Assembly: GCF_029961185.1 (NCBI RefSeq)
Contig: NZ_JASBQQ010000011.1
Location: 1 to 64,000 of the forward strand
Direction: 5' to 3'
Length of the DNA stretch: 64,000 nucleotides
Source: Albidovulum aestuarii
GTDB taxonomy: Bacteria; Pseudomonadota; Alphaproteobacteria; Rhodobacterales; Rhodobacteraceae
The position numbers were made by a program, and so were the translations under genes. The notes beneath the pieces were generated by a model. It saw only the letters and a program-made list of their open reading frames with translations, did no database searches and was not told the DNA's origin. This document shows, piece after piece, positions 8,994 to 63,493 of the stretch. Positions within the stretch are counted from its first letter, which is position 1. The number at the start of each line of letters is the position of its first letter.

Positions 8994-13247
<4,254 letters not shown>

Positions 13248-46093: not shown

Positions 46094-46900
46094 ATGACCA
46101 GACCCGCGCTCATCACCGACAGCCACTGCCATCTCGACTTCCCCGATTTCGCCGGGGAACTGCACGATATCATCGCCCGCGCCAACGCGGCAGGCGTCCA
46201 TCGCATGGTGACGATATGCACGCGGCTGAAGAACGAACCGCAGGTCCGCGCCATTGCGGAAACCCATGCCAATGTCTTCTATGCGGCAGGCACCCATCCG
46301 ATGAGCGCGGCGGAAGAACCGATGGCCACGGTGGATGACCTTGTCGCGCTGGCCCGTCACCCGAAATTCGTCGGTATCGGCGAAACCGGGCTCGACTACC
46401 ACTACACCGCCGACAGCGCCGAGGTGCAGCAGCAGTCACTCCGCATCCATATCGCGGCCGCGCGTGAAACCGGCCTGCCGCTCATCATCCATGCCCGCGC
46501 GGCGGATGAGAATATGGCCCGCATCCTGACCGAGGAATACCGGAACGGTGCTTACGCTTGCGTCATGCACTGCTATTCCTCGGGCCCCGATCTGGCCCGC
46601 GCGGCGCTGGACCTCGGCTTTTACCTCTCCATGTCCGGTATCGCTGCCTTCCCGAAAAGCCAGGAACTGCGCGACATCTTCGCGAACGCCCCAGTCGACC
46701 GCATCCTTGTCGAAACAGACGCGCCCTACCTGGCCCCGCCACCGCATCGCGGGCGGCGCAACGAACCGGCCTATACCGCCCATACGGCCAAAGTGGGCGC
46801 GGAGATCTTCGGCCTCAGCTATGAGGACTTCGCGGCCCGGACCGAGGCCAATTTCGACCGGCTCTTTACCAAGGCGGCGGCTGCCGCAAAGGCGGCCTGA
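46094..46900 (+). CDS. TatD-family metal-dependent hydrolase (DNase)
   Basis: A 268-residue TIM-barrel hydrolase of the TatD family, enzymes with 3'-5' exonuclease activity on DNA/RNA. It shows the N-terminal metal site DSHCHLDFPDF, the GIGETGLDYHY segment, LPLIIHARAADENM, MHCYSSG and LVETDAPYLAP. The gene order tmk-holB-tatD-MBL hydrolase is common in alphaproteobacteria. The next gene starts two bases after its stop. Confidence 0.94.
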   Translation: MTRPALITDSHCHLDFPDFAGELHDIIARANAAGVHRMVTICTRLKNEPQVRAIAETHANVFYAAGTHPMSAAEEPMATVDDLVALARHPKFVGIGETGLDYHYTADSAEVQQQSLRIHIAAARETGLPLIIHARAADENMARILTEEYRNGAYACVMHCYSSGPDLARAALDLGFYLSMSGIAAFPKSQELRDIFANAPVDRILVETDAPYLAPPPHRGRRNEPAYTAHTAKVGAEIFGLSYEDFAARTEANFDRLFTKAAAAAKAA

Positions 46901-46901
46901 C

Positions 46902-47702
46902 ATGGCGCTCATGCGCTTCACCATCCTTGGCTGCGGGTCGTCCGGCGGCGTGCCGCGCATCGGCGGGCTCTGGGGCGATTGCGACCCTGAAAACCCGAAG
47001 AACCGGCGGACCCGCTGTTCCATGCTGGTTGAACGGATCGGAGAAGAGGGCATCACCCGCGTCCTCATCGACACCTCGCCCGACATGCGCGAGCAGCTTC
47101 TGAAGACGGAGATCGACCATCTCGACGCCGTCCTCTACACCCATTCCCATGCAGATCATGTGAATGGGCTCGATGACCTGCGCCAGCTCGTCTTCCTCAA
47201 CCGCCGCAAAGTTCCGGTCTGGGCGGACGCGCCGACGCAAGAGGCGCTGATGTCGCGCTTCGCGTACGCGTTCGTGCAGCCCGAGGGCTCCTCCTATCCG
47301 CCGATCTGCGATCTGCACACGATAAGGGGCGTGGTCCATATCGACGGGCCCGGCGGGCGGATCACATTCGACCCGTTCGAGGTCGATCACGGCGATATCG
47401 ACGCTTTGGGTTTCCGCATCGGCTGCCTTGTCTATCTACCCGATGTTCTGACGATCCCGGACCCGGTCTGGGACAGTCACTTGAAGAACCTCGACTGTTT
47501 CATCGTGGACGCGCTCCGGCGCAAGCCGCACCCGACCCATGCCCATCTGGCCCTCACGCTGGAATGGCTGGCGCGCGCCCGGCCGAAACACGGCGTCCTG
47601 ACGAACATGCATATTGACCTCGACCACGCCACGGTGGAGACCGAGACCCCCGACCATATCAGCGCCGCCTATGACGGGATGGTGCTGGAATACGAGGTTT
47701 AG
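46902..47702 (+). CDS. Metallo-beta-lactamase-fold hydrolase, PhnP-like
   Basis: A 266-residue hydrolase starting MALMRFTILGCGSSGGVPRIGG at 46902; the longer frame back to 46548 overlaps tatD and is a shadow. The metal-binding THSHADHVNGLDDL (HxHxDH) is intact, with further ligands near VDHGDID and HIDLDH. The N-terminal GCGSSGGVPRIGGLWGDCDP pattern resembles PhnP-type cyclic phosphodiesterases. Because no phn genes are near and it always follows tatD in related genomes, its role is probably general nucleotide or phosphodiester turnover. Confidence 0.86.
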   Translation: MALMRFTILGCGSSGGVPRIGGLWGDCDPENPKNRRTRCSMLVERIGEEGITRVLIDTSPDMREQLLKTEIDHLDAVLYTHSHADHVNGLDDLRQLVFLNRRKVPVWADAPTQEALMSRFAYAFVQPEGSSYPPICDLHTIRGVVHIDGPGGRITFDPFEVDHGDIDALGFRIGCLVYLPDVLTIPDPVWDSHLKNLDCFIVDALRRKPHPTHAHLALTLEWLARARPKHGVLTNMHIDLDHATVETETPDHISAAYDGMVLEYEV

Positions 47703-47708
47703 GTCCCG

Positions 47709-48653
47709 GTGCCCGGCCTGCCGATCCAGACACTTCTGGAAGTCACGCTGCCGGTCTTTCTGGTCATCGGGTTCGGCTATCTCGCCGTCAGGTTCAGGAC
47801 CTTCAGCGATGCGGGCGTGGATGGGTTGATGAAGTTCACCCAGAACTTCGCGATCCCCTGCCTTCTCTTCCGCGCCATCTCGACGCTTGACCTCGACCAG
47901 ACCTTTCAGTGGCCCCTGCTGGTATCGTTCTACACCGGCGCCACGACGGGCTTCTTCGTCGGTCTTCTGGGCGCAAGGTTCCTTTTCGGCCGCCCATGGA
48001 CCGACGCGGTGGCCATCGGCTTCTGCTGTCTCTTCTCCAACTCGCTACTCTTGGGCCTGCCGATCACCGAACGCGCCTATGGGTCGGATGCGCTGGCCGC
48101 GAACTATGCGATCATCGCCCTGCACTCACCCTTCTGCTACGCGCTCGGCATCACCGCGATGGAGATCGCCCGGCATGGCGGCGCCGGGGTCATTACCACC
48201 GTCAAGGCCGTGGTCGCCGCGATGGTCAAGAACGCGCTGGTGATCGGCATCGCGCTCGGCTTCGCGGTCAACCTGTCCGGCACCACCCTGCCCGGTGTCC
48301 TGACCGAGGCCATCGACCTGATGATCCGCGCCGCCCTGCCCGCCGCCTTGTTCGGGCTTGGCGGGGTGCTGGTGCGTTACCGGCCCGAGGGCGACCTTTT
48401 GACCGTTCTCTTCGTCTGCGCCGTGGGTCTGGTCCTGCACCCGACGATCACCTGGACACTGGGACAATCGCTCGGCCTCGCGCAGGCTCCGTTCCGCTCG
48501 GCCGTTGTCACGGCCGCGATGGCGCCCGGGGTCAACGCCTATGTCTTCGCCAATATGTACGGCGTCGGCAAACGGGTGGCAGCAACGGCCGTCCTCTTCG
48601 CCACCGCGCTTTCGGTCGTGACCGTCTCGGTCTGGCTCAGCCTGCTCGGCTGA
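47709..48653 (+). CDS. AEC-family transporter (auxin efflux carrier superfamily)
   Basis: A 314-residue inner-membrane protein with about ten hydrophobic segments, starting with GTG at 47709 (MPGLPIQTLLEVTLPVFLVIGFGYLAVRF). The N-terminal segment, the NFAIPCLLFRAI stretch and the C-terminal GVNAYVFANMYGVGKRVAATAVLFATALS pattern are characteristic of the auxin efflux carrier family. Bacterial members export or exchange organic acids such as malate or malonate. The start lies six bases after the upstream stop, so it is probably co-transcribed. The substrate is unknown. Confidence 0.88.
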   Translation: MPGLPIQTLLEVTLPVFLVIGFGYLAVRFRTFSDAGVDGLMKFTQNFAIPCLLFRAISTLDLDQTFQWPLLVSFYTGATTGFFVGLLGARFLFGRPWTDAVAIGFCCLFSNSLLLGLPITERAYGSDALAANYAIIALHSPFCYALGITAMEIARHGGAGVITTVKAVVAAMVKNALVIGIALGFAVNLSGTTLPGVLTEAIDLMIRAALPAALFGLGGVLVRYRPEGDLLTVLFVCAVGLVLHPTITWTLGQSLGLAQAPFRSAVVTAAMAPGVNAYVFANMYGVGKRVAATAVLFATALSVVTVSVWLSLLG

Positions 48654-51089: not shown

Positions 51090-52307
51090 TCAGGTCGGGC
51101 TCATCCCCCTCAGCCGTTCCGACCGGCGGCGCAGCAGTTCGACCGTGGTCAGAAGGATGATCGAGAAGGTCACAAGCACCGTGGCGACCGCGAGGATCGT
51201 GGGCGAGATCTGTTCGCGGAGCCCCGTGAACATCTGCCAGGGCAGCGTCTTCTGGCTCGCCGAACCGACGAAAAGCACTACCACAACCTCGTCAAACGAA
51301 GTGATGAAGGCAAAGAGGCCGCCCGAGATGACGCCCGGCAGGATGAGCGGCATCTGCACCTTGAAGAAGGTGCGGACCGGTCCCGCCCCCATATTCGCCG
51401 CAGCCCGCGTCAGCGAGCGGTCAAAGCCCACGAGCGTCGCCGTTACCGTGATGATGACAAAGGGAATACCCAGCACTGCATGGGCAAGGACCACCTTCAC
51501 ATAACCGATGAAATCCTGGCTCAGGCCCAAATTGCCTTCCATCCAGTTGCCGAGCTTGGAGTAGAAGAAGAACATGCCGGTGGCCGAGATGATCAGCGGC
51601 ACGATCATCGGCGAAATCAGGATCGCCATGATCGCCCGGCGGCCCGGCACATGGCTCTGGGAAAGGCCGATCGCGGCCAGCGTTCCCAGCGACACCGAGA
51701 TGATCGTGGCCAGCGGCGCGATGATGAACGAGTTTTTCAGCGGCCGGGTCCAGTCAGGATTGTTAAAGAAATCGCGGTAGTGTTTCAGCGAATAGCCCTC
51801 GGGGTCGAAGGCCAGCATCTCGGGCGTGAAGGTAAAGAAGTCCTGCGCGTTGAAGCTCAGCGGCAATACCACAACGATTGGAGCGATCAGGAAGAAGAAG
51901 ATCAGCCCGCAGATCAGCTTGAACGTATTGTGCCACAGCACATCGCCCGCCGTCGCATAGACCGGAACGGTGCTGCGGTAATCGCCGGTGGAAAGCCAAT
52001 AGGCGAACCAGCTTACGATCAGGCCGATGATCACGCCCACTACCGCGCCGGAGACACCCGCCATGAGAAGCCCTGCAATCGCGGCCACAGCGGCGGTACC
52101 GAGCCGGCCGACGCGGCGGTCCGGCACGAAACTGGCCAAGACATAGCCGAGCGCCGCCGCAACGGCCGCCCCGGCGATCAGTCCCAGCAGGGGCTGACCG
52201 TTTGCGGTGCCGACGACATATCCCAGACACAGCCCGGCAACGGCCATGAGCGGAAGGGTAAAGCCAGTGAGGCTCGGCTTCGGAATTTCGGGATGACCGA
52301 TGCTCAT
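51090..52307 (-). CDS. ABC transporter permease, PotC-type with N-terminal membrane extension
   Basis: A 405-residue permease. The C-terminal 280 residues match PotC-type permeases of polyamine/2-aminoethylphosphonate importers: a first helix near 129-150, the PLSFNAQ stretch, and the coupling loop FDRSLTRAAANMGAGPVRTFFKVQMPLILPG. Ahead of it lies an extra N-terminal region of about 120 residues with four further hydrophobic segments (about 16-34, 41-60, 69-85, 87-105), which ordinary PotC proteins lack. It is the last gene of the operon, five bases after the other permease. The substrate class (polyamine, quaternary amine or similar) is inferred from the family. Confidence 0.83.
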   Translation of the reverse strand: MSIGHPEIPKPSLTGFTLPLMAVAGLCLGYVVGTANGQPLLGLIAGAAVAAALGYVLASFVPDRRVGRLGTAAVAAIAGLLMAGVSGAVVGVIIGLIVSWFAYWLSTGDYRSTVPVYATAGDVLWHNTFKLICGLIFFFLIAPIVVVLPLSFNAQDFFTFTPEMLAFDPEGYSLKHYRDFFNNPDWTRPLKNSFIIAPLATIISVSLGTLAAIGLSQSHVPGRRAIMAILISPMIVPLIISATGMFFFYSKLGNWMEGNLGLSQDFIGYVKVVLAHAVLGIPFVIITVTATLVGFDRSLTRAAANMGAGPVRTFFKVQMPLILPGVISGGLFAFITSFDEVVVVLFVGSASQKTLPWQMFTGLREQISPTILAVATVLVTFSIILLTTVELLRRRSERLRGMSPT

Positions 52308-52312
52308 ATCTC

Positions 52313-53950
52313 TTACCCCAGCTTCACGTTATCGATGCCGACGATCTTGTCGTAGACGTAGTAGAGCAGCAGCACCGCCCCGAGCAGGATCGACCCCAAG
52401 GCCGCCGCCAGACCCCAGTTCAGCGAGGACGAGATGTGGAAGGCGATCCGGTTCGAGATGAAGACACCCTGCGTACCACCAACGAGTTCCGGCGTGATGT
52501 AGTAGCCGATCGCGAGGATGTAGCACAGGATCGACCCCGCGCCGATGCCCGGCACCGATTGCGGGAAATAGACCCGCCAGAACGCGGTCCAGTTCGTCGC
52601 GCCAAGCGATTTTGCCGCGCGCAGATAGGTCGGTGGGATCGTCTTCATCACCGAGTAAAGCGGCAGGATCATGAAGGGCAGCAGAATATGCGTCATCGCC
52701 ACGATCGTGCCGAACTGGTTGTTGATCAGAACCAATCGGCTGCCGTCATCGACGAGGCCAAGCCAGACGAGGATGTCGTTGATCACACCCTGTTGCTGCA
52801 ACATCACCTTCCAGGCTGAGGTCCGAACCAGAAGCGAGGTCCAGAAGGGCAGGAGGACGAGGATCATCAGCACGTTCGCGGTCGAGGCGCGCAGGTTGGC
52901 GAGGATCCACGCCACCGGATAGCCGAGAACGAGACAGCAGAAGGTGATCAGCATCGACATCCAGATCGTGCGCCAGAAAAGCATCAGGTAGATCTGCTGC
53001 TGCTCCGGTCGTTGCTGAATGCCCTCGGGGCTCTTTTCGAGATCGACAGCGTTCAGGAAGTAACCCGGTGTGTAGCGCGCGGCATAGGATTGAATCGTCT
53101 GCCAGCTGTCGACTTCGCTCCATCCCTTGTCGATGTCGATGAAGGCATCCTTGTACGAAATCGGCTCAAAACCCGGAACCGCGGCGCCTGCCGCTTGCAG
53201 CAGCCCGGCTGACGCGCCGTTCACCGCAGACAGCGATTCGGGGGATGCGGTAGCAAGGTCCTGTTCCAGCGCGGTGTAGAGGACTGGCCAAGGCTTGGTC
53301 TCAACCGCGCTTTTCTTGTTTTCAGTCCGTGCGACCCTTGCGAAGGCCGTGTAGACATCGGAAGTCATCGGCAACGCAGAAGCAGCCTCGGCGCGGGGCG
53401 AGAAGCGCGGCTGGCGGCCATCGTCCTTCGACCATTCCGCCATATCGGCCAGCCAATCATCCGACCCCAGAAGTGCGGCCCAGGTCGCGCCGTCCTTCCA
53501 GGCCGGGTCAAGGTCGGTGAACCGTTTTGTTGACGCCTTGCCGATATCGTCGGCACCGCGTCCGGTCTTGCGGAACATCGAGGAGAGCCCCGGATTTTCG
53601 TAGTTCAGACGGGTGCCAAGCTTGGTATGGTTCTTTTCCTCGCTCGCGGCCTGAAAATCGACCGCCAGCGCGGCATAGACCGGCTCATCCGGCGTTTCTC
53701 CGGTTGAGGAATCCCAACTGGACAGCAGCCGGACGGTATGCGGAAGTGTATCCGAGACGATCTGGTTTTCCACCGACCGGAACAGCATGTCTGCGATCGG
53801 CACCACGAAGGTGACCAGCACGAAGATCAGGAGAGGCGCGATCAGCGCCAGTGCCCTGAGCTTCTGCCGCCTGAGTGCGCGGGCGAGGCTTTTCTTCAGC
53901 GGCGTGCCGTCGGCGGCCCGCATCGGACCCGTATCGGTAGTGTCGCTCAT
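52313..53950 (-). CDS. ABC transporter permease, PotB-type with large periplasmic insert
   Basis: A 545-residue permease, nearly twice the usual PotB length. After the first membrane segment (about 33-60) there is an insert of about 260 residues (61-320), hydrophilic and predicted periplasmic, before the second segment at about 323. The rest is standard: TWMS-type helices, the coupling loop TYLRAAKSLGATNWTAFWRVYFPQSVPG and a C-terminal helix. The start has GGGGGAG three bases ahead of the ATG. It follows the binding-protein gene and a strong hairpin. The insert could be a second ligand-binding or docking domain; no family is recognised for it. Confidence 0.83.
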   Translation of the reverse strand: MSDTTDTGPMRAADGTPLKKSLARALRRQKLRALALIAPLLIFVLVTFVVPIADMLFRSVENQIVSDTLPHTVRLLSSWDSSTGETPDEPVYAALAVDFQAASEEKNHTKLGTRLNYENPGLSSMFRKTGRGADDIGKASTKRFTDLDPAWKDGATWAALLGSDDWLADMAEWSKDDGRQPRFSPRAEAASALPMTSDVYTAFARVARTENKKSAVETKPWPVLYTALEQDLATASPESLSAVNGASAGLLQAAGAAVPGFEPISYKDAFIDIDKGWSEVDSWQTIQSYAARYTPGYFLNAVDLEKSPEGIQQRPEQQQIYLMLFWRTIWMSMLITFCCLVLGYPVAWILANLRASTANVLMILVLLPFWTSLLVRTSAWKVMLQQQGVINDILVWLGLVDDGSRLVLINNQFGTIVAMTHILLPFMILPLYSVMKTIPPTYLRAAKSLGATNWTAFWRVYFPQSVPGIGAGSILCYILAIGYYITPELVGGTQGVFISNRIAFHISSSLNWGLAAALGSILLGAVLLLYYVYDKIVGIDNVKLG

Positions 53951-54000
53951 GTCTCCCCCGTCAGAGATTATTGGTCTTCAAAGTCACAAACGAATGGGGT

Positions 54001-54024
54001 GGAAGGGGCCCTGAGGCCCCTTCC
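54001..54024 (-). other. Stabilising hairpin between binding-protein and permease genes
   Basis: A perfect 10-bp G/C-rich stem (54001-54010 with 54015-54024, loop CTGA) lies 12 bases after the stop of the binding-protein gene. No U-run follows on the minus strand. Hairpins at this place in ABC operons usually protect the upstream mRNA from 3' decay, so that more binding protein than permease is made. The role here is inferred from position. Confidence 0.7.
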
Positions 54025-54035
54025 GAAAGTGAAGC

Positions 54036-55130
54036 TTAGCCAGCGAGCCAAGCCTGGAACTTCGCGTCGATATCGTCGCGATAGTCAGCCCAGAACTCGA
54101 AGTTGTAGTAGAACACGTTCTGCGCGTTGGCCGGGTCGGTCGGCATGTGCGGTGCCATGTCGATGCCGAGGTCAGCATGCTGACCGACGAGCGGAGCAGA
54201 CGAGGCACGGGCCGGGCCGTACGAGATGTACTTGGCCTGATCCGCCAGACGCTGGGTGTCGGTCGCGAAGAACAGGAAGTCCTTGACGACAGCCAGACGA
54301 TCCTCCGGAAGACCGGTCGGGATAACCCAGCCGTCAAAGCTGAACACCTGCGCGTCCCAGAGCATGCCGATCGGCTGATTCTGTTCGGCAATGGCCGAGA
54401 AGAGACGACCGTTATAGGTCGAGCCCATGACGACCTCGCCATCAGCCAGAAGCTGCGGCGTATCGGCGCCAGCCGACCACCAGATCACCTGATCCTTGAT
54501 CGTGCCGAGCTTGGCGAGCGCCTGCTGCTGGCCTTCGTCGGTCGCCAGAACGTCATAGATGTCTTCCTTGGCGACGCCGTCACACAGGAGAGCCCATTCC
54601 ATGTTGTTGATCGGGCGCTTTTCCAGCGAACGCTTGCCGGGATAGGCTTCCAGATCGAAGACGTCGCAGATGTTCGACGGCGGCGTGTCACCGACTAGAT
54701 CGGTGCGGTAGCCGAAGGTCGTCGAATAGACGATCTGCGGAATGTAGCAGGCATTCACGATCTGGGCGCCGAAGTCCTCGGAAGCCGAGGTGCCGTCATC
54801 CGCCGGGGCCAGCAGTTCGTCCGGATCGTATTCCATCGCCAGACCTTCGTCGCAGAGACGGAAGCTGTCCGCCGCGTCCACATCGACCAGATCCCAGGTC
54901 AGGTTGCCGGCCTCGTTCATCGCGCGGAGTTTTGCCACGGCTTCGGCCGAACTTTCGTCCCAGATGATGTTCACGTCCGGATGCGCTTCCATGTACGGCT
55001 TGGCATAGGCTTCGAGCTGCGACTTCTGATAGGCGCCGCCCCAGGACACGAACGTCAGGTCGATGGCCGAGGCAGCCCCGGCGGACATCACCAACGCGGA
55101 TGTCGCAAGAAGAGTTTTCGTCAGTTTCAT
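54036..55130 (-). CDS. ABC transporter substrate-binding protein, PotD/PotF-type
   Basis: A 364-residue periplasmic protein with a signal peptide of 22 residues (MKLTKTLLATSALVMSAGAASA). The mature start IDLTFVSWGGAYQKSQLEAYAKPYMEAHPDV is typical of the family that includes polyamine, quaternary-amine and similar binding proteins. Later segments NLTWDLVDVDAADSFRLCDEGL and EVVMGSTYNGRLFSAIAEQNQPI support this. A hairpin follows the gene. It is the second gene of the operon after the ATPase. Ligand identity cannot be read safely. Confidence 0.87.
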   Translation of the reverse strand: MKLTKTLLATSALVMSAGAASAIDLTFVSWGGAYQKSQLEAYAKPYMEAHPDVNIIWDESSAEAVAKLRAMNEAGNLTWDLVDVDAADSFRLCDEGLAMEYDPDELLAPADDGTSASEDFGAQIVNACYIPQIVYSTTFGYRTDLVGDTPPSNICDVFDLEAYPGKRSLEKRPINNMEWALLCDGVAKEDIYDVLATDEGQQQALAKLGTIKDQVIWWSAGADTPQLLADGEVVMGSTYNGRLFSAIAEQNQPIGMLWDAQVFSFDGWVIPTGLPEDRLAVVKDFLFFATDTQRLADQAKYISYGPARASSAPLVGQHADLGIDMAPHMPTDPANAQNVFYYNFEFWADYRDDIDAKFQAWLAG

Positions 55131-55213
55131 TGCTTACTCCCTATAAGCTCCCGTCTTGATCTTGTTGGTCCACACCCCGGGATAGGTATCCGGACCAAAT
55201 TCACTTGTTTTGT

Positions 55214-56320
55214 TTAGGCGTCGAGCGCGCGGCAATCCTGCGGCAGCCAGCCGATCTCGATCTGCGCTCCCGGCTGAAGCCGGACCTGATCTGGCGCGTT
55301 GCGGGTCTTGACGACGAATTCGTCATTGCCGGCGACGCGCAGACGGGTGCGGAAGATGTCACCCATATAGATGAATTCAAGCACCTCGGCCTTGAGCGTA
55401 TGGGCGCCGGGCTGAAGCCGGGCCTTGTTGAACTCCACGCGCTCGGGCCGGATCGACACCCGGGTGCGCTCACCGGGCTTGGAGACGTTGACCGGCTTGC
55501 AGTCGATCAGTTCACCATCGTCCAGTTCCACGACGGCGATATCGCCCTTGATCTCTTTCACAGCACCAAGAAGCGTGTTGTTTTCGCCGATGAACTGGGC
55601 GACGAAGCTGTTGGCCGGTTCTTCATAAAGAACATCGGGCGGGGCAAGCTGCTGGATGCGACCGTCATCAAAGACAGCGACATTGTCCGACATCGTCAGC
55701 GCCTCGGTCTGGTCGTGGGTGACGTAGACCGTCGTGATGCCAAGGTCATGCGCCAGGCGGGTGATCTCGAACTGCATGTGTTCGCGCAACTGCTTGTCGA
55801 GCGCGCCAAGTGGTTCGTCCATCAGCACCAGTTCGGGTTCGAAGACGAGCGCGCGCGCCAAGGCGACACGCTGCTGCTGACCGCCTGACATCTGTGCCGG
55901 ACGGCGTCCACCGAACTTGCCCATCTGCACCATGTCGAGCGCGCGCTTTACCTTCGCCTCGCGATCGGACTTGCTCATGCCGCGCACTTCCAGCGGAAAG
56001 GCGAGGTTTTCAGCCACAGTCATGTGCGGAAAGAGGGCGTAGTTCTGGAACACCATGCCGATGCCGCGCTTGTGTGGCGGGATATTGTTGATCGGCTTGC
56101 CGCCCAACCGGATGTCGCCATGGGTCGCTGTCTCGAACCCTGCCAGCATCATCAGGCACGTGGTCTTGCCCGAACCGGACGGCCCGAGCATCGTCAGGAA
56201 CTCGCCCTTGGCGATGGTGAGATTCAGGTCTTTGACGACCAGTGTTTCCCCATCATAACTTTTCTGAACGTGTTCAAATTCGACGAATGCGGCGTCGCCG
56301 CCGGTTTTGGCATTGGTCAA
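55214..56320 (-). CDS. ABC transporter ATP-binding protein, PotA-type
   Basis: A 368-residue ATPase with Walker A LGPSGSGKTT, signature MSGGQQQRVALARAL, Walker B LVLMDEPLGALD and a C-terminal TOBE-type domain (about 270-368). The long ATG frame to 56497 crosses the predicted promoter, so I take the TTG at 56320 (MTNAKTGGDAAFVEF), which has GGGGAG seven bases ahead and gives the normal family length. It is the first gene of the ATPase / binding protein / permease / permease operon. Confidence 0.85.
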   Translation of the reverse strand: MTNAKTGGDAAFVEFEHVQKSYDGETLVVKDLNLTIAKGEFLTMLGPSGSGKTTCLMMLAGFETATHGDIRLGGKPINNIPPHKRGIGMVFQNYALFPHMTVAENLAFPLEVRGMSKSDREAKVKRALDMVQMGKFGGRRPAQMSGGQQQRVALARALVFEPELVLMDEPLGALDKQLREHMQFEITRLAHDLGITTVYVTHDQTEALTMSDNVAVFDDGRIQQLAPPDVLYEEPANSFVAQFIGENNTLLGAVKEIKGDIAVVELDDGELIDCKPVNVSKPGERTRVSIRPERVEFNKARLQPGAHTLKAEVLEFIYMGDIFRTRLRVAGNDEFVVKTRNAPDQVRLQPGAQIEIGWLPQDCRALDA

Positions 56321-56522: not shown

Positions 56523-56768
56523 CTATCCACCGGTCATGTATGGCATCAGCACAACCTCGCTATCCGGCGGAATCTCGGTGAACCACGCCTCGCGGTAGAT
56601 CACACCGTTCAACGACATCGATACGCCGCGCTTAATCTGCGGTTGCAAACCTGGATAGGCCTCGCCCAGCCGGTCGAGGAGTTGCTTGAAATTCGTCGCC
56701 TCGATCTCGACCTCGGTCAGCCCGTCCGTGGCCTGCCTGAGCGAACCCCAGAGCAGGACCTTGACCAT
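56523..56768 (-). CDS. MoaD/ThiS-family sulfur-carrier-like protein
   Basis: An 81-residue ubiquitin-fold protein starting MVKVLLWGSLRQATDGLTEVEIEA and ending in the diglycine MTGG, the tail that is thiocarboxylated in MoaD and ThiS. It overlaps the hydroxylase large-subunit stop by one base (TGATG), so it is part of the same operon. It is not beside moaE or other cofactor genes, which suggests a dedicated copy that serves this hydroxylase, or sulfuration of its cofactor. That role is inference; the fold and tail are visible. Confidence 0.8.
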   Translation of the reverse strand: MVKVLLWGSLRQATDGLTEVEIEATNFKQLLDRLGEAYPGLQPQIKRGVSMSLNGVIYREAWFTEIPPDSEVVLMPYMTGG

Positions 56769-59008
56769 CAGGTGCCCCCGATGGCCTTCAGGACCCGAGG
56801 CGGAGACATCGGCAGTTCGGTCATCCGCACACCCGTCGCATGCGACACGGCGTTCGAGAGCGCTGCGAGCGGTGGCACGATCCCGGTTTCGCCCACGCCG
56901 CGCACACCGTATGGGTGGCCGGGATTGGGAATCTCAAGGATCACCGTCTCGATCATCGGCAGGTCCGAGGCGACCGGCACGCGGTAGTCGAGGAATGTCG
57001 GGTTCTGAAGCCGACCGTCCGGACCATAGATATATTCCTCGTTCAGCGCCCAGCCGATGCCCTGCACCGCTCCGCCCTGCATCTGTCCCTCGACATAGTC
57101 GGGATGGACGGCCTTGCCCGCATCCTGGAAGACGGTGTAGCGCAGCACCTTGGTCGCGCCGGTCTCACGGTCGACCTCGACATCGCAGAGATGGACGCCA
57201 AAGCTGACGCCCGCGCCATCGGCATTGACCTCATAGTGCCCGGCGATGGGCCCCCCCGTCTCGGCCGAAACGGCAGCGATCTCGGCCAGCGACATCGGCG
57301 GGAACTTCCCGGCATTGGGGCCGGCAGGGACTGCAGCGCCGTCTTTCCATTCCACGGCCTCAGGGTCGATGCCCCAGATTTTCGCGGCGCGGGCGCTCAT
57401 CTTTTTGATCGCATCGCGGGCGGCCTTGATCGTGGCCAGCCCCACCGCGAAGGTCACGCGGCTGCCATCGGTCACGTCGTTGTACCCCAAGGACGAGGTG
57501 TCGGCGACGATGGTGCGGATACGTTCATAGGGAATGCCCAGTTCCTCTGCCGCCATCAGGCTGATGGAGGCGCGCGAGCCGCCGATATCCGGATTGCCTT
57601 CGGTGATGCCGACCGTACCGTCGGTGTTCACGTTGAGCGACACACAGGTATTGCCGCCGAAGTTGAACCAGAAGCCGCAGGAGAGGCCGCGACCCTGACC
57701 GGGCTTCAGCGGGGCCTTGTAATGCGGATGGGCCTTTGCCGCCTCCAGCGTCGCCACCAGCCCGATATCGGGGAAGGTCGGCCCGTAAGAGGATTTCGTG
57801 CCCTTGCGCGCGGCGTTTTTCAGGCGGGTTTCCAGGGGGTCGAGTCCCAGTTCGAGGCACAACTCATCAACCACGCTTTCCACCGCATAGACCGCCATCG
57901 GCGCACCGGGCGCGCGATAGGCCGCTTCCTTCGGGCGGTTGGTGAGGACTGACCAGCCGTAGGTGCGCACGGCTTCCAGATCATAGGCCGCGAACGCGGC
58001 CGAACAGCCGAATTCGGTCGTGCCGCAGGGAAACGCACCGCCCTGATAGCGCAAGGTCGCCTCTCCTGCCGTGATCCGACCATCCTTGGTCATGCCGATC
58101 TTGACGTCGGAGGATGATGACACGGTCGGCCCCGTTGCACGGAAAACCTCGTCCCGGCTCATCACGATCTTGACCGGCCGGCCCGCCTTTTTCGACAGCA
58201 TCAGGGCCACAGGTTCGATGAAGACCGTCGTCTTGCCGCCAAAACCGCCGCCGATTTCGGAGGCGGTGACGCGCAACTGGCTCGCCTCCATCCCCATGAT
58301 CGAGGAGCAAAGCGTGCGGACATAGAACTGACCTTGGGTGCAGCACCAGAGATCGGCCTTGCCGTCCGAGGTGACCGAGGCGAGGCAGGCATGGGGTTCG
58401 ATATAGCCCTGATGGGTGGCCGCCGTTTTAAACGACCGCTCGATGATCTTGTCGGCCTTGGCGAACCCGGCCTCCATATCGCCGTGACCGAATTCGAAAT
58501 GCGCGGTGACGTTTTCCGAATATCCCTTAGGCACGTTTTCCTGCACCCGACCCGCCTGCACAACAGGCGCGCCCGGCTTCATCGCCTCATCGACATCGGT
58601 CACATGGGGCAGCACCTCGTAGTCGATCTTGATCGCCTTGAGCGCGGCTTTCGCCGCTGCCGCATCGGTTGCGGCGACGGCTGCCACGGCATGACCATCG
58701 TAAAGCGCCTTGCCGCGCGCCATGCAGTTTTCCTGCACATCGCGGATGAAATCATCCTCAGGCACGGCGAAATCATCGCCGGTGATCACGGCCTTCACGC
58801 CCTTCAGAGCCAGTGCGGCCGAAACGTCGATGCTCTTGATCCGGGCATGGGCATGGGGGCAGCGCAGGATGCGCCCGGTCAGCATGCCGGGTGCCGTGGC
58901 ATCGGCCCCATACATCGCCCGGCCCGTGACCTTGTCCACCCCGTCGGGGCGGCGCACACGGGTGCCGACCTGCTTGAACTCGCGGCGGGTATATTCGTCC
59001 AAGGACAT
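56768..59008 (-). CDS. Molybdenum hydroxylase large subunit (xanthine dehydrogenase family)
   Basis: A 746-residue molybdopterin-binding subunit of the xanthine oxidase family. It starts MSLDEYTRREFKQVGTRVRRPDGVDKVTGRAMYGAD. Cofactor-binding motifs are visible: GGGFGGKT, AYRAPGAP (no Cys in the loop, so not a carbon monoxide dehydrogenase), and near the C terminus GVRGVGETG, which holds the catalytic Glu. It starts two bases after the 2Fe-2S subunit stop and overlaps the MoaD-like gene. Such enzymes hydroxylate aldehydes or N-heterocycles with water as oxygen source. The substrate is unknown, but the flavin oxidoreductase upstream suggests a nitrogenous ring or N-methyl compound. Confidence 0.9.
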   Translation of the reverse strand: MSLDEYTRREFKQVGTRVRRPDGVDKVTGRAMYGADATAPGMLTGRILRCPHAHARIKSIDVSAALALKGVKAVITGDDFAVPEDDFIRDVQENCMARGKALYDGHAVAAVAATDAAAAKAALKAIKIDYEVLPHVTDVDEAMKPGAPVVQAGRVQENVPKGYSENVTAHFEFGHGDMEAGFAKADKIIERSFKTAATHQGYIEPHACLASVTSDGKADLWCCTQGQFYVRTLCSSIMGMEASQLRVTASEIGGGFGGKTTVFIEPVALMLSKKAGRPVKIVMSRDEVFRATGPTVSSSSDVKIGMTKDGRITAGEATLRYQGGAFPCGTTEFGCSAAFAAYDLEAVRTYGWSVLTNRPKEAAYRAPGAPMAVYAVESVVDELCLELGLDPLETRLKNAARKGTKSSYGPTFPDIGLVATLEAAKAHPHYKAPLKPGQGRGLSCGFWFNFGGNTCVSLNVNTDGTVGITEGNPDIGGSRASISLMAAEELGIPYERIRTIVADTSSLGYNDVTDGSRVTFAVGLATIKAARDAIKKMSARAAKIWGIDPEAVEWKDGAAVPAGPNAGKFPPMSLAEIAAVSAETGGPIAGHYEVNADGAGVSFGVHLCDVEVDRETGATKVLRYTVFQDAGKAVHPDYVEGQMQGGAVQGIGWALNEEYIYGPDGRLQNPTFLDYRVPVASDLPMIETVILEIPNPGHPYGVRGVGETGIVPPLAALSNAVSHATGVRMTELPMSPPRVLKAIGGT

Positions 59009-59009
59009 G

Positions 59010-59486
59010 TCAGGCCCCCCTCATTTCGGCCGCCGCCGCCTGAACGGCGCGGATGATTTTGTCGTAACCCGTGCAGCGGCAGAGATTGCCGGCCAGCCAA
59101 TAGCGCAGCTCCTCATCGCTCGGGTCCGGGTTCTTTTCCAGAAGCGCCTTGGCGGCGACGAGAATGCCCGGCGTACAGACCCCGCACTGAAGCGCCGCGC
59201 CGTCGATGAAATGGCGTTGCAGCGGGTGGAGTTCGTCGCCGTCGGCCATTCCCTCGATGGTCGTGACCTCGGCCCCCTCGGCCTCGGCCCCCAGCACGAG
59301 GCAGGAACAGACAAGGCGGCCATTGACGGTCACCGAACAGGCCCCGCAATCACCGGTGCCGCAGCCTTCCTTAGCGCCGGTCAGGCCAAGCCGGTTCCTA
59401 AGCACGTCGAGCAAGGTCTCATCCGGTGCGCAGAGAAACTCAAAAGGATCGCCGTTGATCGTTGTGGAGACATGCAGCTTGGTCAT
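59010..59486 (-). CDS. Molybdenum hydroxylase 2Fe-2S subunit
   Basis: A 158-residue electron-transfer subunit with two [2Fe-2S] domains. The plant-type N-terminal cluster reads [22 protein letters not shown], and the C-terminal helical cluster has QCGVCTPG and NLCRCTGY. All expected Cys are present. Its ATG overlaps the FAD subunit stop by four bases (59483-59486), and the large subunit starts two bases after its stop. Confidence 0.95.
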
Positions 59487-60346
59487 TTCGATCCTCCGGC
59501 GCGGGCATAGGCGATAAGGGCGGCGCGTTTGGCCAATGTTCCGGCCATTTTCGTGCGGTATTCGATCGTGCCGCGCTTGTCGTCGATCGGGTTGCAGACC
59601 GCTTCGCAGGCCTTGGCCATTGCCGCGAGCGCGCCGTCATCAAGGTTCGTACCGACCAGCGCCTTGCCCGCATCGTCGGCCACGACGACCGTCGGCGCGA
59701 CGGCACCCAGCACGATCCGGGCCGCTTTCACAGTACCGTCCGCGTTAAGTTCCAGCGAAACACCGGCCGAGGCTACGGCGATGTCCATTTCTGTTCTCGG
59801 GATGAAGCGCAGATAGGCGTCAGAGGCACGATCCGGCCGCGCGGGCAGGAAGATCGAAGTGATGATCTCGCCCTTCTTCAGCGTCGTCTTGCCGGGGCCT
59901 GCCGGAATGTCTGCCACGGGACAATCGCGTTCGCCATCGGGACCCGCGATCCGGGCGACCGCGTTGGCGGCGACCAGCGAGGGCACCGCGTCACCGGCGG
60001 GCGAGGCATTGCAGAGATTGCCGACCATGGTGCAGCGGCCCTGTACCTGCGTCGAGCCGATCAACTGCACACCCTCGGCCACACCGGGCCATGCGGCGCA
60101 GAGCGCGGCGTGCTCACCGATCTCGGCACCCGATACAGCCGCCCCGATGCGGAAACCGCCGCTCTCCGCGACGATCCCGCGAATGCCTGGGATCTTCTTG
60201 ATGTCGACGATCAGGTCGGGCTCGACCATGCCGGACCGAAGCTGCACGAGCACATCCGTGCCCCCCGCCAGAATCCGGGTCAGACCCTTTTCAGCAGCCA
60301 AGGCTCCTGCCGCCTCGGCAGCCGTTTTCGCAGCCAGATATCTCAT
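59483..60346 (-). CDS. Molybdenum hydroxylase FAD subunit
   Basis: A 287-residue flavoprotein subunit (CoxM/XdhB type) from the ATG at 60346, which has GGAGGAAAGG ahead; the longer frame to 60418 is not family-like. It shows the FAD motif [15 protein letters not shown] (about 27-41) and the second flavin segment [15 protein letters not shown]. It takes electrons from the 2Fe-2S subunit. It is the first of the three hydroxylase genes, 100 bases after the flavin oxidoreductase gene. Confidence 0.92.
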
Positions 60347-60376
60347 CTTTCGCCTTTCCTCCCGACCGTCGCTTGC

Positions 60377-60414
60377 GGTGGCTCTCCCGGTCTGATTGCC
60401 GGATTCGAGCCACC
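60377..60414 (-). other. Hairpin between the oxidoreductase and FAD-subunit genes
   Basis: An 8-bp stem (60377-60384 with 60407-60414) encloses an inner four-base CCGG stem. It lies in the 100-base intra-operon gap, without a U-run. It may stabilise the upstream message or separate expression of the oxidoreductase from the hydroxylase. Confidence 0.45.
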
Positions 60415-60446
60415 ACAATAACGAACGGAGACGAAAGCGAAAGACG

Positions 60447-62489
60447 TCAGATATCTTTCACCAGCCGAAGCGCATCATAGATCGCCGCATGCGTGTTCCG
60501 CGCCGAAACCGCGTCGCCGATGCGGAAAAGCTGAAACCGGCCTTCGGGGTTGGTGCGCAACTCCTGCGGCCGACCGTCGATCAGTGCGGCATGGTCGACT
60601 TCGCCACGGTTGACCGACTGCTCCTTGAGGTCGAAGTAGAGGTCGGCATTCGGCATCGTGCCGCAGTTCACGACGATCTGGTCGTAGTCCTTGTCCTTCG
60701 TGAATTTGGAGTAATCCGTCCCGAGTGTCGCCATCAGCCGGTTGCCCGCCTTGCGTACCGCCTTGAGAAGCCAGGTCACGGTGAAAGTGACGTCCTTTTC
60801 CTGCAAACTCCGCATGTAGGGGACAAGGTTCATCGCCATGACATCAGGCGAGAAGCTGCGGTCTCGGGTCATGATCTCGACCTTCGCGCCGCTCGCGGCA
60901 AGCACGTCGGCCGCCTGAAGCGCCGAATGATCGCCGGCCTCGTCGTATATCAGGACGTCACGGCCGGGCTTGGCATCTCCCGACAGGATATCCCAGGCCG
61001 AAACCGTGAGGTCGTCACCGGAGGAAAGGATGTCCGTGTGCGGCAGGCCGCCCGTCGCGACGATCACGACATCGGGATTGAGGGCCATCACATCGTCGGC
61101 CTCGGCCCAGGTGTTGAAACGGAACTCGACGTCGCGCGCAGCACATTGCGCCATGCGCCAGTCGATGATCCCGATCATCTCGGACCGGCGCTTCGTCTGC
61201 GCGGTCAGCCGAACCTGCCCGCCGGGCTGGTCGGCGGCCTCGAACACGGTGACATGGTGGCCGCGTTCGGCGGCGACCCGCGCCGCCTCGAGCCCGGCCG
61301 GACCAGCGCCCGCGATCACGATCCGCTTCGGCTGATCCGCGCGCGCGATCTTGTGCGGCATCGTCAGTTCGCGGCCCGTCGCCGCGTTGTGGATGCAAAG
61401 CGCCTCGCCCGCGCCGTAGATCCGGTCGAGACAGTATGTCGCGCCGACGCAGGGCCGGATGTCGTCCTCGCGGCCCTCCCGGATCTTCTGGACGATATAG
61501 GGGTCGGCCATGTGGGCGCGGGTCATGCCCACCATGTCGAGTTGCCCTGTCACGACTGCGTGCCGCGCCGTTGCCACGTCAGGAATACGCGCGGCGTGGA
61601 AGGTCGGCAGGCCGACTTCGGCTCGGACCCTTCCGGCGAGATCGAGATGCGGAGCCGACCGCGCGCCCTGGATCGGGATCATGTCGGTCATCGCCGGGTC
61701 GGTGTGGATGCGGCCGCGGTTGATGTTGAGATAGTCGACCTGTCCGCTCGCCTTGAACATATGCGCGATCTCGAGACCCATTTCTTCGGTGATGCCGCCC
61801 TCTTCGGCCTCGTCGGGCGCAAACCGCGTGCCGACAATAAAATCGTCTCCGACACGGCGGCGCACCGCGTTAATGATGTCGAGCGTCAGGCGCATCCTCG
61901 TGGCGAGGCTTTCCTTGCCGTAGGGCCCGTCGAGTTCGTTGGTGAGCGGCGAGATGAACTGGTCGAGGAGATGACCGTGGGTCATAATCTCAACCCCATC
62001 GAGGCCCGCCTGTTTCATCCGCTCGGCGGCATCGGCGAAATCGCCGATGATCCGTGCGATGTCCCAATCCTCGGCGAGCTTGGGGAAGCGGCGATGCGCC
62101 GGTTCGCGGTCGCGGGTAGAGCTGACAGAGGGCAGCCAGGCGCCCTTGTCCCAACCGGTCCGTCGACCGAGATGGGTAAGCTGGATCATCACCGCGCAGC
62201 CTTGATCGTGGCATTCGTCGGCGAGCTTTTTCATCCAGCCGACGACTTCGTCCTTCCAGACGAGCACGTTGTTGAAGACCGGAGGGCTGTCGCGGCTGAC
62301 CGAGGCAGACCCCGCCGTCATCGTCATCGCGACCCCGGCCTTTGCGCGCTCCACATGATAGGCGCGGTAGCGGTCCTTCGGCATGCCATCTTCGGGATAG
62401 GCGGGTTCATGGCTCGTCGTCATGATCCGGTTTTTCAGCGTCAGATGCTTGAGCTGATAGGGCTGCAACAGCGGGTCGTTCGAAGCCAT
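60447..62489 (-). CDS. FMN/Fe-S NADH:flavin oxidoreductase, N-demethylase-like
   Basis: A 680-residue enzyme from the ATG at 62489 (AGGA eight bases ahead). The N-terminal half is an Old-Yellow-Enzyme barrel (MASNDPLLQPYQLKHLTLKNRIM, TSHEPAYPEDGMP, VMIQLTHLGRRT, MTHGHLLDQFISPLTN), and the C-terminal half is a pyridine-nucleotide-disulfide type domain (IVIAGAGPAGLEAARVAAERG). This layout matches trimethylamine/histamine dehydrogenase, dienoyl-CoA reductase and N-methylproline demethylases; TSHEPAYPEDGMP is closest to the demethylase type. The Fe-S motif has C347, C353 and C365 but Ala350 where the second Cys is expected. It opens the leftward operon with the molybdenum hydroxylase and is divergent from a TetR gene. 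Confidence 0.82.
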   Translation of the reverse strand: MASNDPLLQPYQLKHLTLKNRIMTTSHEPAYPEDGMPKDRYRAYHVERAKAGVAMTMTAGSASVSRDSPPVFNNVLVWKDEVVGWMKKLADECHDQGCAVMIQLTHLGRRTGWDKGAWLPSVSSTRDREPAHRRFPKLAEDWDIARIIGDFADAAERMKQAGLDGVEIMTHGHLLDQFISPLTNELDGPYGKESLATRMRLTLDIINAVRRRVGDDFIVGTRFAPDEAEEGGITEEMGLEIAHMFKASGQVDYLNINRGRIHTDPAMTDMIPIQGARSAPHLDLAGRVRAEVGLPTFHAARIPDVATARHAVVTGQLDMVGMTRAHMADPYIVQKIREGREDDIRPCVGATYCLDRIYGAGEALCIHNAATGRELTMPHKIARADQPKRIVIAGAGPAGLEAARVAAERGHHVTVFEAADQPGGQVRLTAQTKRRSEMIGIIDWRMAQCAARDVEFRFNTWAEADDVMALNPDVVIVATGGLPHTDILSSGDDLTVSAWDILSGDAKPGRDVLIYDEAGDHSALQAADVLAASGAKVEIMTRDRSFSPDVMAMNLVPYMRSLQEKDVTFTVTWLLKAVRKAGNRLMATLGTDYSKFTKDKDYDQIVVNCGTMPNADLYFDLKEQSVNRGEVDHAALIDGRPQELRTNPEGRFQLFRIGDAVSARNTHAAIYDALRLVKDI

Positions 62490-62579
62490 GGCACATGTCC
62501 TGTCGAATTGCCCGGGCCTGTCCCGGGCGGTTGTGGAATCGCTTTTAGAGCGGTTTTGGATCCTCAGAATGGCAAAAAC

Positions 62580-62593
62580 CGACACATGTGTCG
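62580..62593. promoter_or_regulatory. Perfect palindrome, candidate TetR operator
   Basis: CGACACATGTGTCG (62580-62593) is a perfect 14-base palindrome, flanked by A5 and T6 tracts that extend the symmetry except for one mismatched pair. It lies between the divergent oxidoreductase and TetR genes, about 45 bases ahead of the TetR ATG and 90 ahead of the oxidoreductase ATG. TetR regulators usually bind such sites in shared promoters. The palindrome is seen; the binding is inferred. Confidence 0.65.
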
Positions 62594-62637
62594 ATTTTTT
62601 ACGCCCGCATCCCCCAATTACGCGGTAAGCGGGTAGT

Positions 62638-63282
62638 ATGGACGACTTGGAACCCCTTGGACGCGGTTGGCGCGGCACGGAAAGCGGCTGGATCGAGGCC
62701 GCTTACGCGATGCTGATCGAAGGCGGGGTGGAGGCGGTAAAGATCCTGCCTCTGGCCAAGCGGCTACGTCTGTCGCGAACCAGCTTCTACTGGCACTTTC
62801 CCGACCGAGAGGCATTGCTGGCGGCGCTGATCACCCGCTGGCAGGAGAAAAACACTGGCAACCTGGTCCGCCAGACTGAGCTCGTCGCCCCGACAATCAA
62901 TGCCGCCGTTCTTAATCTCTTCGACTGCTGGATCACCCCCGAACTCTTCGACGCGGCGCTTGACCACGCGATGCGAAACTGGGCGCGGACGGATACCGCC
63001 CTGAAAGCCGCTTTCGACGCGGCCGACGCAGCCCGAATTGCCGCAATACGCGCGATGTTTCAACGTCACGGCTATGTTGCGGAAGAGGCCGACATCCGCG
63101 CCAATGCGATCTACCTGACGCAGGTGGGCTACATCGCACTCGGGACAACCGAAACGCTGGAGGCGCGTCTTGGGCGCATTCCGACCTATCTGGAAACCTT
63201 CACCGGTCGCCCGGCCTCAGATGAGGAACTGCAGTTCTTTCTGGCCCGCCACCGCAACGGCGCGGTCAGCGGCGGCGGATGA
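62638..63282 (+). CDS. TetR/AcrR-family transcriptional regulator
   Basis: A 214-residue regulator with an N-terminal helix-turn-helix (ESGWIEAAYAMLIEGGVEAVKILPLAKRLRLSRTSFYWHF, typical of TetR with the SFYWHFPDREALLAAL ending) and a helical C-terminal ligand-binding domain. The divergent arrangement with the oxidoreductase and the palindrome at 62580-62593 make it the likely repressor of the oxidoreductase/molybdenum hydroxylase genes and itself. Its 3' end overlaps the convergent TusA-like gene by 17 bases. Confidence 0.92.
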   Translation: MDDLEPLGRGWRGTESGWIEAAYAMLIEGGVEAVKILPLAKRLRLSRTSFYWHFPDREALLAALITRWQEKNTGNLVRQTELVAPTINAAVLNLFDCWITPELFDAALDHAMRNWARTDTALKAAFDAADAARIAAIRAMFQRHGYVAEEADIRANAIYLTQVGYIALGTTETLEARLGRIPTYLETFTGRPASDEELQFFLARHRNGAVSGGG

Positions 63283-63493
63283 GGTAGATCTGCGCCGCGC
63301 CATCCTCGACCGTGGAGATCAGGTCGTGCCCCGCCTCGGCGCAGAAATGCGGCACGTCGATCACCGCCGCTGGATCGGTGGCGACCAGCCGCAACACGGC
63401 ACCGGGTTCCATGCCCGATAGACGCTTGCGCGCCTTAAGAACCGGCAAAGGGCACAAAAGCCCGGTCGCGTCGATTTCCTGATCCCACATCAT
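63266..63493 (-). CDS. TusA/SirA-like sulfurtransferase
   Basis: A 75-residue protein from the ATG at 63493 (MMWDQEIDATGLLCPLPVLKARK). The catalytic Cys14 lies in the CPxP motif (CPLP) that defines the TusA family of persulfide carriers. Partners in this family deliver sulfur to tRNA modification, molybdenum cofactor or sulfur oxidation. It is convergent with the TetR gene and divergent from fdsG. Proximity to formate dehydrogenase makes sulfur delivery to a molybdenum enzyme plausible but not shown. Confidence 0.85.
   Translation of the reverse strand: MMWDQEIDATGLLCPLPVLKARKRLSGMEPGAVLRLVATDPAAVIDVPHFCAEAGHDLISTVEDGAAQIYLIRRR

Follow-up and report, generated by a model that had tools for sequence, protein, structure and literature searches.

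The window analysed here, a stretch of 64,000 nucleotides (nt) from contig NZ_JASBQQ010000011.1 of Albidovulum aestuarii, carries a locus that is a composite of two units (Table 1). The first consists of a TetR-family regulator gene and, divergent from it, the gene of a flavoprotein of the old yellow enzyme/trimethylamine dehydrogenase (OYE/TMADH) type. The second is a cassette, coxM-coxS-coxL-moaD, encoding the FAD, 2Fe-2S and molybdenum (Mo) subunits of a Mo hydroxylase and a small protein of the MoaD/ThiS fold. All of these genes exist and match the families given to them in the initial annotation of this DNA, including the leftward direction of the flavoprotein gene and of the cassette. 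The tight coupling described there was confirmed for the 1-base overlap of moaD with coxL and the 4-base overlap of coxS with coxM, but coxL and coxS are separated by 1 base rather than 2. The flavoprotein starts with an ATG at position 62489, its gene lies 100 nt from coxM, and 202 nt separate moaD from potA, the first of a set of importer genes on the strand of the cassette. The composite locus is probably regulated.

Table 1. Features of the composite locus and its flanks, by position in the window (aa, amino acids; ABC, ATP-binding cassette).
Feature	Position	Strand	Support or remark
TetR-family regulator, 214 aa	62638..63282	+	Pfam TetR_N, E 1.1e-11
Perfect 14-bp palindrome CGACACATGTGTCG, presumed TetR operator	62580..62593	.	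Conserved in relatives
OYE/TMADH-type flavoprotein of the HpbA/StcD kind, 680 aa, presumed N-methyl (cyclic) amino acid demethylase	60447..62489	-	Pfam Oxidored_FMN
CoxM-like FAD subunit of Mo hydroxylase, 287 aa	59483..60346	-	Pfam FAD_binding_5, CO_deh_flav_C
CoxS-like 2Fe-2S subunit, 158 aa	59010..59486	-	Pfam Fer2, Fer2_2
CoxL-like molybdenum subunit, 746 aa	56768..59008	-	Pfam Ald_Xan_dh_C, MoCoBD_1, MoCoBD_2
MoaD/ThiS-fold protein, 81 aa, ends MTGG; cassette gene 4	56523..56768	-	Pfam ThiS, 30.7 bits (cut-off 22.5)
PotA-like ABC ATPase of importer	55214..56320	-	TIGR01187, 373.4 bits (cut-off 355.6)
Importer solute-binding protein	54036..55130	-	SBP_bac_8
Importer ABC permease	52313..53950	-	BPD_transp_1
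Importer ABC permease (second)	51090..52307	-	BPD_transp_1
TusA gene	63266..63493		On the other side of the locus from the importer
Formate dehydrogenase, fused NuoE/NuoF-type (FdsGB) and FdhF-type (FdsA)	from 63681, past the window end into L090		

The coxMSL-moaD cassette is a widespread, independent unit that encodes an uncharacterised variant of the Mo hydroxylases. CoxL (E 1e-150 or better) was found in 74 of 385 sampled alphaproteobacterial genomes, and a scan of genome contigs gave at least 581 stretches encoding a CoxL relative, 80 of which were kept. A MoaD-like stretch lies behind CoxL in all 80 kept loci (tblastn) and ends in a diglycine (GG) in 78, the end being different in L014 and running off the contig in L046. 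Thirty further close loci, drawn from plasmid records and fetched genomes and partly overlapping with the 80, all carry the GG-tailed protein, giving 108 of 110 close loci when counted by homology and 92 of 110 under a GG-tail rule that is stricter, and in places looser. Among 40 distant loci, picked for spread from the matches in the 74 CoxL-bearing genomes, a GG-tailed small open reading frame follows coxL in 32, that is in 32 of the 35 with at least 58% identity (exceptions L251, L259 and L262) and in none of the five at 57% or less; one distant locus, L268, has a weak MoaD match (33%) and no GG tail by the rule. The tails are mostly PYMxGG, with ARLKGG and others among them. The structural model of the MoaD-like protein has a mean predicted local distance difference test score of 91.6 and the beta-grasp fold which, like the C-terminal GG, it shares with the MoaD/ThiS carriers; the nearest folds in Foldseek are CysO, MoaD and SAMP1, with template modelling scores (by query) of 0.78-0.81 to CysO and 0.80 to E. 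coli MoaD. A single further ThiS-family match exists in the source genome; it adjoins MoaE on contig C21 and makes up the canonical moaD-moaE pair with it, whereas the copy in the cassette follows the hydroxylase. As gene four of the cassette, the MoaD-like protein belongs with the hydroxylase. Contrary to what had been suggested, it is not reserved for the pathway of the whole locus, because it follows the hydroxylase whether or not the flavoprotein accompanies them.

The genes upstream of the cassette are near-random. In a survey of 122 loci, for which neighbour genes were called with a codon-scored caller, 59 had a gene on the same strand no more than 300 nt upstream, and 46 of these were scanned with Pfam, the 13 left out being loci of the genus (L006, L007, L008, L010 and L016), short pieces (L020 and L200) and close repeats (L012, L015, L058, L060, L080 and L083). 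No upstream-neighbour family recurs in more than three of the 46.

The active-site pocket of this CoxL type is also distinctive. In the window protein, the pocket motifs read KT, RAPGAP, DIGGSR and GVGETG. When 132 sequences of the CoxL family (130 of them distinct) are aligned, distant ones without a GG-tailed MoaD included, threonine follows GGGFGGK in 130, while the RAP loop and the active-site glutamate of the GE motif are present in all. The glutamine of the GQG motif is missing from all 132 sequences and D[I/V]GGSR is found in 127. In bovine xanthine oxidase, the GQG glutamine contacts the cofactor. The three other Mo hydroxylases of the source genome keep GQG, and its xanthine dehydrogenase has KE.

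The hydroxylase is a member of the broad xanthine-oxidase superfamily, with Ald_Xan_dh_C, MoCoBD_1/2, Fer2/Fer2_2 and FAD_binding_5 domains in addition to the GE glutamate, and it shares three subunits and the same domains with 4-hydroxybenzoyl-CoA reductase, XdhABC, CO dehydrogenase and the aldehyde oxidoreductases. However, its CoxL scores below the curated cut-off of every one of the 13 NCBIfam families that it matches. The nearest profile and the nearest solved structure for the Mo subunit are those of 4-hydroxybenzoyl-CoA reductase alpha. This enzyme was ruled out, as the alpha subunit reaches less than half of the curated cut-off (464.9 against 994.55 bits) and the beta and gamma subunits also fall short (114 against 404.55 and 162.2 against 257.8 bits). 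The active-site cysteine loop of aerobic CO dehydrogenase is AYRCSFR; the window protein has AYRAPGA in this place and scores 301.8 bits against a cut-off of 991.15, and CO dehydrogenase was likewise rejected.

The initial annotation had itself considered that the hydroxylase might prove to be a xanthine dehydrogenase and the flavoprotein a dienoyl-CoA reductase. It is hardly credible that the pair is simply a xanthine dehydrogenase next to a flavoprotein of the dienoyl-CoA reductase type: the matches in this direction are generic to the superfamilies, with 432 and 417 bits to XdhA-type models whose cut-offs are 780 and 916, and 195 bits to the dienoyl-CoA reductase structure 1ps9, while the pocket is without KE and GQG. 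The true xanthine dehydrogenase of the genome is encoded on contig C21 (1216.7 bits against a cut-off of 849.5) with an adjoining XdhC gene, and the flavoprotein is far closer, at about 70% identity, to HpbA-annotated proteins.

In a profile search of the genome, two genes scored above the XdhC-family cut-off: one adjoins the C21 xanthine dehydrogenase and the other lies about 4 kb from the hydroxylase on contig C12. No XdhC-family gene lies near the cassette, and the hydroxylase on contig C17 likewise has none nearby. The cassette hence differs from the known enzymes in having neither the cysteine loop of CO dehydrogenase, nor the KE of xanthine dehydrogenase, nor the GQG glutamine, and in bringing its own MoaD gene with no XdhC-type gene nearby. 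Literature term searches, with the limits of such searches, found no paper on this cassette type. A new subfamily of Mo hydroxylases could be proposed on these grounds, with an altered pocket (GQG glutamine gone and DIGGSR instead, KT for KE), no XdhC-type chaperone, and its own MoaD/CysO-like carrier whose thiocarboxylate would supply sulfur to the cofactor, for example as the Mo=S ligand. Taken with all of its parts, this proposal is speculative and we consider it rather unlikely.

The demethylase half of the locus is a further member of an enzyme kind that is already known. The flavoprotein is matched by 383 plasmid records, and the 40 rows listed are 68.5-75.0% identical to it. Among these rows are HpbA-annotated proteins of Paracoccus and Rhodobacter (N-methyl-L-proline N-demethylase), at 68.6-70.6% identity and 99-100% query coverage, the HpbA label being an annotation and not a measured activity. 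The next-best paralogue in the source genome is 33% identical. As the initial annotation had proposed, the flavoprotein is probably of the N-demethylase kind, removing methyl groups from small nitrogen compounds. StcD of Sinorhizobium meliloti is described as an N-methylproline demethylase in PMC12239276; the likeness to StcD is one of annotated function, the sequences compared being those annotated HpbA.

The neighbourhoods of several relatives are in line with this assignment. A divergent TetR gene is found at three of five plasmid neighbourhoods viewed, Rieske oxygenase and reductase genes adjoin the flavoprotein relatives in genome G010 and in Roseivivax, a Rieske gene is also present in G015, and a proline racemase gene adjoins some relatives. 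One plasmid relative has glycine-betaine-type ABC and pyrroline-5-carboxylate-reductase-type genes nearby, and the Roseinatronobacter relative has a trimethylamine-methyltransferase-family gene and formate dehydrogenase genes nearby. In the window, no quaternary-amine or proline gene lies directly beside the flavoprotein gene, which is followed instead by the Mo hydroxylase cassette, the Rieske gene being elsewhere in the genome. The flavoprotein also departs from TMADH and dienoyl-CoA reductase in its cluster motif, CVGATYC...C, at about residues 346-365. The second of the four cysteines that bind the [4Fe-4S] cluster in those enzymes is an alanine in 36 of 37 tree rows, including the window and the Paracoccus HpbA row, and the sole exception with all four is the outgroup taken from the own genome. 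Since one of the four cysteines is replaced, the HpbA-type flavoproteins probably hold a different cluster or none.

The relation between the two units was followed in 22 genomes of the genus (G000-G021). The flavoprotein, at 56% identity or more, and CoxL are each present in 21 of them. The units are adjacent in 13 genomes (G000-G004, G007-G009, G012, G013, G016, G017 and G019), always in the same order and on the same strand, with gaps of 51-221 nt between the flavoprotein gene and coxM. They are separate in seven (G010, G011, G014, G015, G018, G020 and G021) and two are undecidable, as no CoxL was found in G005, where a contig ends, and no flavoprotein in G006, where coxM lies at a contig end. 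In G020, the same locus is without the cassette and the importer lies 352 nt from the flavoprotein gene, while in G011 and G018 the same locus is without the flavoprotein and TetR genes. At L017, which may or may not belong to the genus, both units are present with the flavoprotein gene on the opposite strand and one gene between. The initial annotation had read the six genes as one regulated pathway and had named scattering in close relatives as an argument to the contrary. Such scattering occurs in some close relatives only. The divergent TetR gene, the conserved palindrome and the link in 13 of the 22 genomes speak for a regulated association, but one fixed pathway of six genes is unsupported, because the cassette is independent with near-random neighbours and the units lie apart in seven genomes.

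These variants raise the question of whether the two units are mere neighbours. The stretch by the importer could be a parking place, at which the demethylase and the cassette share a promoter region and no pathway. The units do come and go separately at the same spot, with flavoprotein and importer but no cassette in G020, and cassette and importer but no flavoprotein in G011 and G018 (and in G006, where the contig ends in coxM); the cassette's neighbours elsewhere are near-random and the importer binding protein is present in 19 of the 22 genomes. On the other hand, order, strand and short gap are kept in all 13 linked genomes and the cassette-linked label is clustered in the flavoprotein tree, none of 500 shuffles giving a value as low. 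Conserved order and clustering would also be expected from one insertion followed by descent, and we regard mere neighbourhood as unlikely, yet as an explanation to be taken seriously.

The Rieske gene offers a further view of the first unit. A Rieske gene like that of G010 occurs in nine of the 22 genomes, all of which have the flavoprotein. Six of these nine also belong to the 13 linked genomes, and none of the six has a flavoprotein above 50% identity other than the linked one. The copy in the source genome (69% identity) is located at L281 8701-11015 with a gene of 357 aa sized like the reductase of G010, and this region adjoins Orn/Lys/Arg-decarboxylase and carbon-nitrogen hydrolase genes. 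In G010, the Rieske, reductase, flavoprotein and TetR genes stand together beside glycogen-type genes; in G013, the Rieske and reductase genes are at the glycogen genes, and the flavoprotein and TetR genes are at the cassette instead. The glycogen genes are annotated in G013 only, G010 having been matched by gene order and size. In the tree, the G010 flavoprotein groups with the Paracoccus HpbA row and the G013 copy with the cassette-linked rows; hence the difference between the two genomes does not reflect one recent move.

The TetR gene accompanies the flavoprotein and not the cassette, as it is absent at the cassettes of G011 and G018, whose flavoproteins elsewhere have their own TetR gene. 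The perfect palindrome reported earlier at the head of the locus, CGACACATGTGTCG, was confirmed. It ends 90 nt ahead of the flavoprotein ATG and is the sole site with at most one mismatch in the 4.24-Mb genome, in which the reversed control pattern gave none. A weaker control was limited to the window, for which the expected number of sites with at most two mismatches is 0.31; one or more appeared in 26 of 100 shuffles. Ten members of the linked clade have a TetR gene (the window, L101, L102, L104-L108, L115 and L116). The palindrome is present with 0-2 mismatches in eight of them, namely the window and seven relatives; across these eight it is exact in G000, G001, G005, G012 and G016, and has one mismatch in G007 and two in G008 and G020. 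Of the remaining two members, L102 has four mismatches, and the promoter stretch read for L107 was just 52 nt long, the gene caller having set the start too far upstream. In six linked loci that have no TetR gene beside them (L017, L103, L109, L111, L112 and L125) the mismatches number 5-7, and in TetR-bearing relatives outside the linked clade 4-7, while TM1040 has a different perfect palindrome of similar form. The palindrome in the divergent promoter is thus a putative TetR operator, from which we infer repression by TetR.

On the far side of the cassette, the importer genes (51090-56320) encode an ABC system of the polyamine/γ-aminobutyrate (GABA) type in the direction of the cassette. The closest solved relatives of its binding protein are Pot/GABA-type proteins, namely 8jv1 (spermidine/putrescine-binding), a GABA sensor precursor and 4eq7 among the GABA-sensor/polyamine-binding proteins. 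The binding protein is present in the genus even where the cassette is about 14 kb off; in the three genomes without a match, G007 has a diverged copy (46%) in place and the contigs of G003 and G008 end just after moaD. On the TetR side, the TusA and formate dehydrogenase neighbours are common to the window, G001, G002 and G005. Past the formate dehydrogenase genes, L090 carries amidohydrolase/deaminase and purine nucleoside phosphorylase genes (9906-12046). In G012, the locus is flanked by heme-synthesis genes on one side and by a membrane-transport and lactamase-type pair on the other; the window keeps this pair (46548-48653) and has TusA and formate dehydrogenase where G012 has the heme-synthesis genes.

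The reading that we favour, while giving it slightly less than an even chance as a whole, is a composite locus for the regulated demethylation of N-methylproline-like compounds together with the oxidation of an aldehyde or cyclic imine. The TetR protein, released from the palindrome by an inducer, would derepress the HpbA/StcD-type flavoprotein, which would oxidatively strip the N-methyl group from N-methylproline or a closely related N-methylated cyclic amino acid, yielding the secondary amine and formaldehyde. The Rieske oxygenase encoded elsewhere in the genome, resembling the neighbour of the G010 flavoprotein, may supply the mono-methyl compound. The independent cassette would have come to lie just downstream of the TetR/flavoprotein unit in the genus and, because of this position, is perhaps under its control. 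It would yield a three-subunit Mo hydroxylase and a dedicated MoaD-type sulfur carrier serving its molybdenum cofactor. The substrate of the hydroxylase would most likely be an aldehyde or cyclic imine from amine breakdown, converted to an acid or lactam, and the neighbouring Pot/GABA-type importer may take up an amine or amino acid.

Some upstream genes, picked by hand, are compatible with an aldehyde or imine substrate. These are aminotransferase and amine-oxidase-type genes at L085, B12-type diol/glycerol dehydratase gene(s) that precede a diverged copy of the cassette in G020 (L185 4624-7301), a DAO-GCV_T protein at L243 and also at L233, there with an opposite-strand gene between, and PxpABC-type 5-oxoprolinase genes (LamB_YcsF, CT_A_B and CT_C_D) directly upstream of the cassette at L171 (13014-15547). 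Genes similar in size and order to the 5-oxoprolinase-type set were seen at L178 and L187. Other upstream genes, for flagellar proteins, a sulfotransferase, an acyl-CoA ligase, a methionine sulfoxide reductase and a sugar-phosphate mutase, do not fit the idea.

Several observations weigh against the composite reading. As no neighbour family recurs in more than three of the 46 scanned loci, the aldehyde/imine theme was chosen after the fact. The palindrome stands only before the flavoprotein gene, and a further promoter could lie in the 100 nt ahead of coxM. The importer may be unrelated, because its binding protein is present in 19 of the 22 genomes whether or not the other units adjoin. The cysteine that the flavoprotein and the HpbA-annotated row lack, judging from their motifs, bears on the electron path. 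The cassette-linked flavoproteins are also not shown to be one clade: the linked label needs five changes on the tree, well-supported branches force at least three (one linked-labelled row being mislabelled), and the fork holding 14 linked rows among 17 has a support of only 84/94. The mislabelled row is L159, marked through a 43% CoxS-like neighbour, so that 14 rows and not 15 are truly linked.

Two other pathways would join the same enzymes differently. Mo hydroxylases of the xanthine-oxidase superfamily hydroxylate N-heterocycles, and the PDB matches of the hydroxylase include quinoline oxidoreductase, nicotinate dehydrogenase and 6-hydroxypseudooxynicotine dehydrogenase. As the flavoprotein would by homology act on cyclic N-methyl amino acids, both enzymes could act in sequence on one N-methylated N-heterocycle of the homarine or trigonelline type, the Mo enzyme hydroxylating the ring. 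However, most of the cassette loci inspected have no flavoprotein gene next to them. Across the five plasmid neighbourhoods and the scanned genomes of the genus and family, the genes that repeatedly accompany the flavoprotein are of the Rieske or proline type. No pyridine gene was seen in those neighbourhoods, in which not all neighbours are annotated, and such a sequence of reactions appears quite improbable.

Alternatively, the locus could form a line from methyl group to CO2, in which formaldehyde from the flavoprotein is oxidised to formate by the Mo hydroxylase and passed to the neighbouring formate dehydrogenase. Formate dehydrogenase genes are indeed beside the flavoprotein in the source genome, G001, G002 and G005, and near its relative in Roseinatronobacter. 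On a plasmid of Mesorhizobium AR07 (L089), the cassette lies beside formate dehydrogenase, TusA, Glp, FdhD and MobA genes, and an FdsA-like gene (64%) lies a few kb from the cassette at L250. Nevertheless, this neighbour is found in only four of the 22 genus genomes, as judged from fetched stretches that include some short contigs, and a formate dehydrogenase gene of more than 45% identity in four of 178 CoxL loci (L089, L162, L163 and L250; overlapping loci counted, window excluded). In addition, the related Mo aldehyde oxidase PceSML is described as inert on formaldehyde in PMC5131310. We hold the formate line to be improbable, and retain the composite reading.

If the proposed subfamily is real, a MoaD-type carrier could replace the XdhC route in the maturation of Mo hydroxylases. 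This CoxL type is present in about one in five of the sampled alphaproteobacterial genomes, mostly with its own MoaD gene. Furthermore, the genus holds natural variants, with the flavoprotein and no cassette or the cassette and no flavoprotein at the same site, by which the roles of the two units could be separated.

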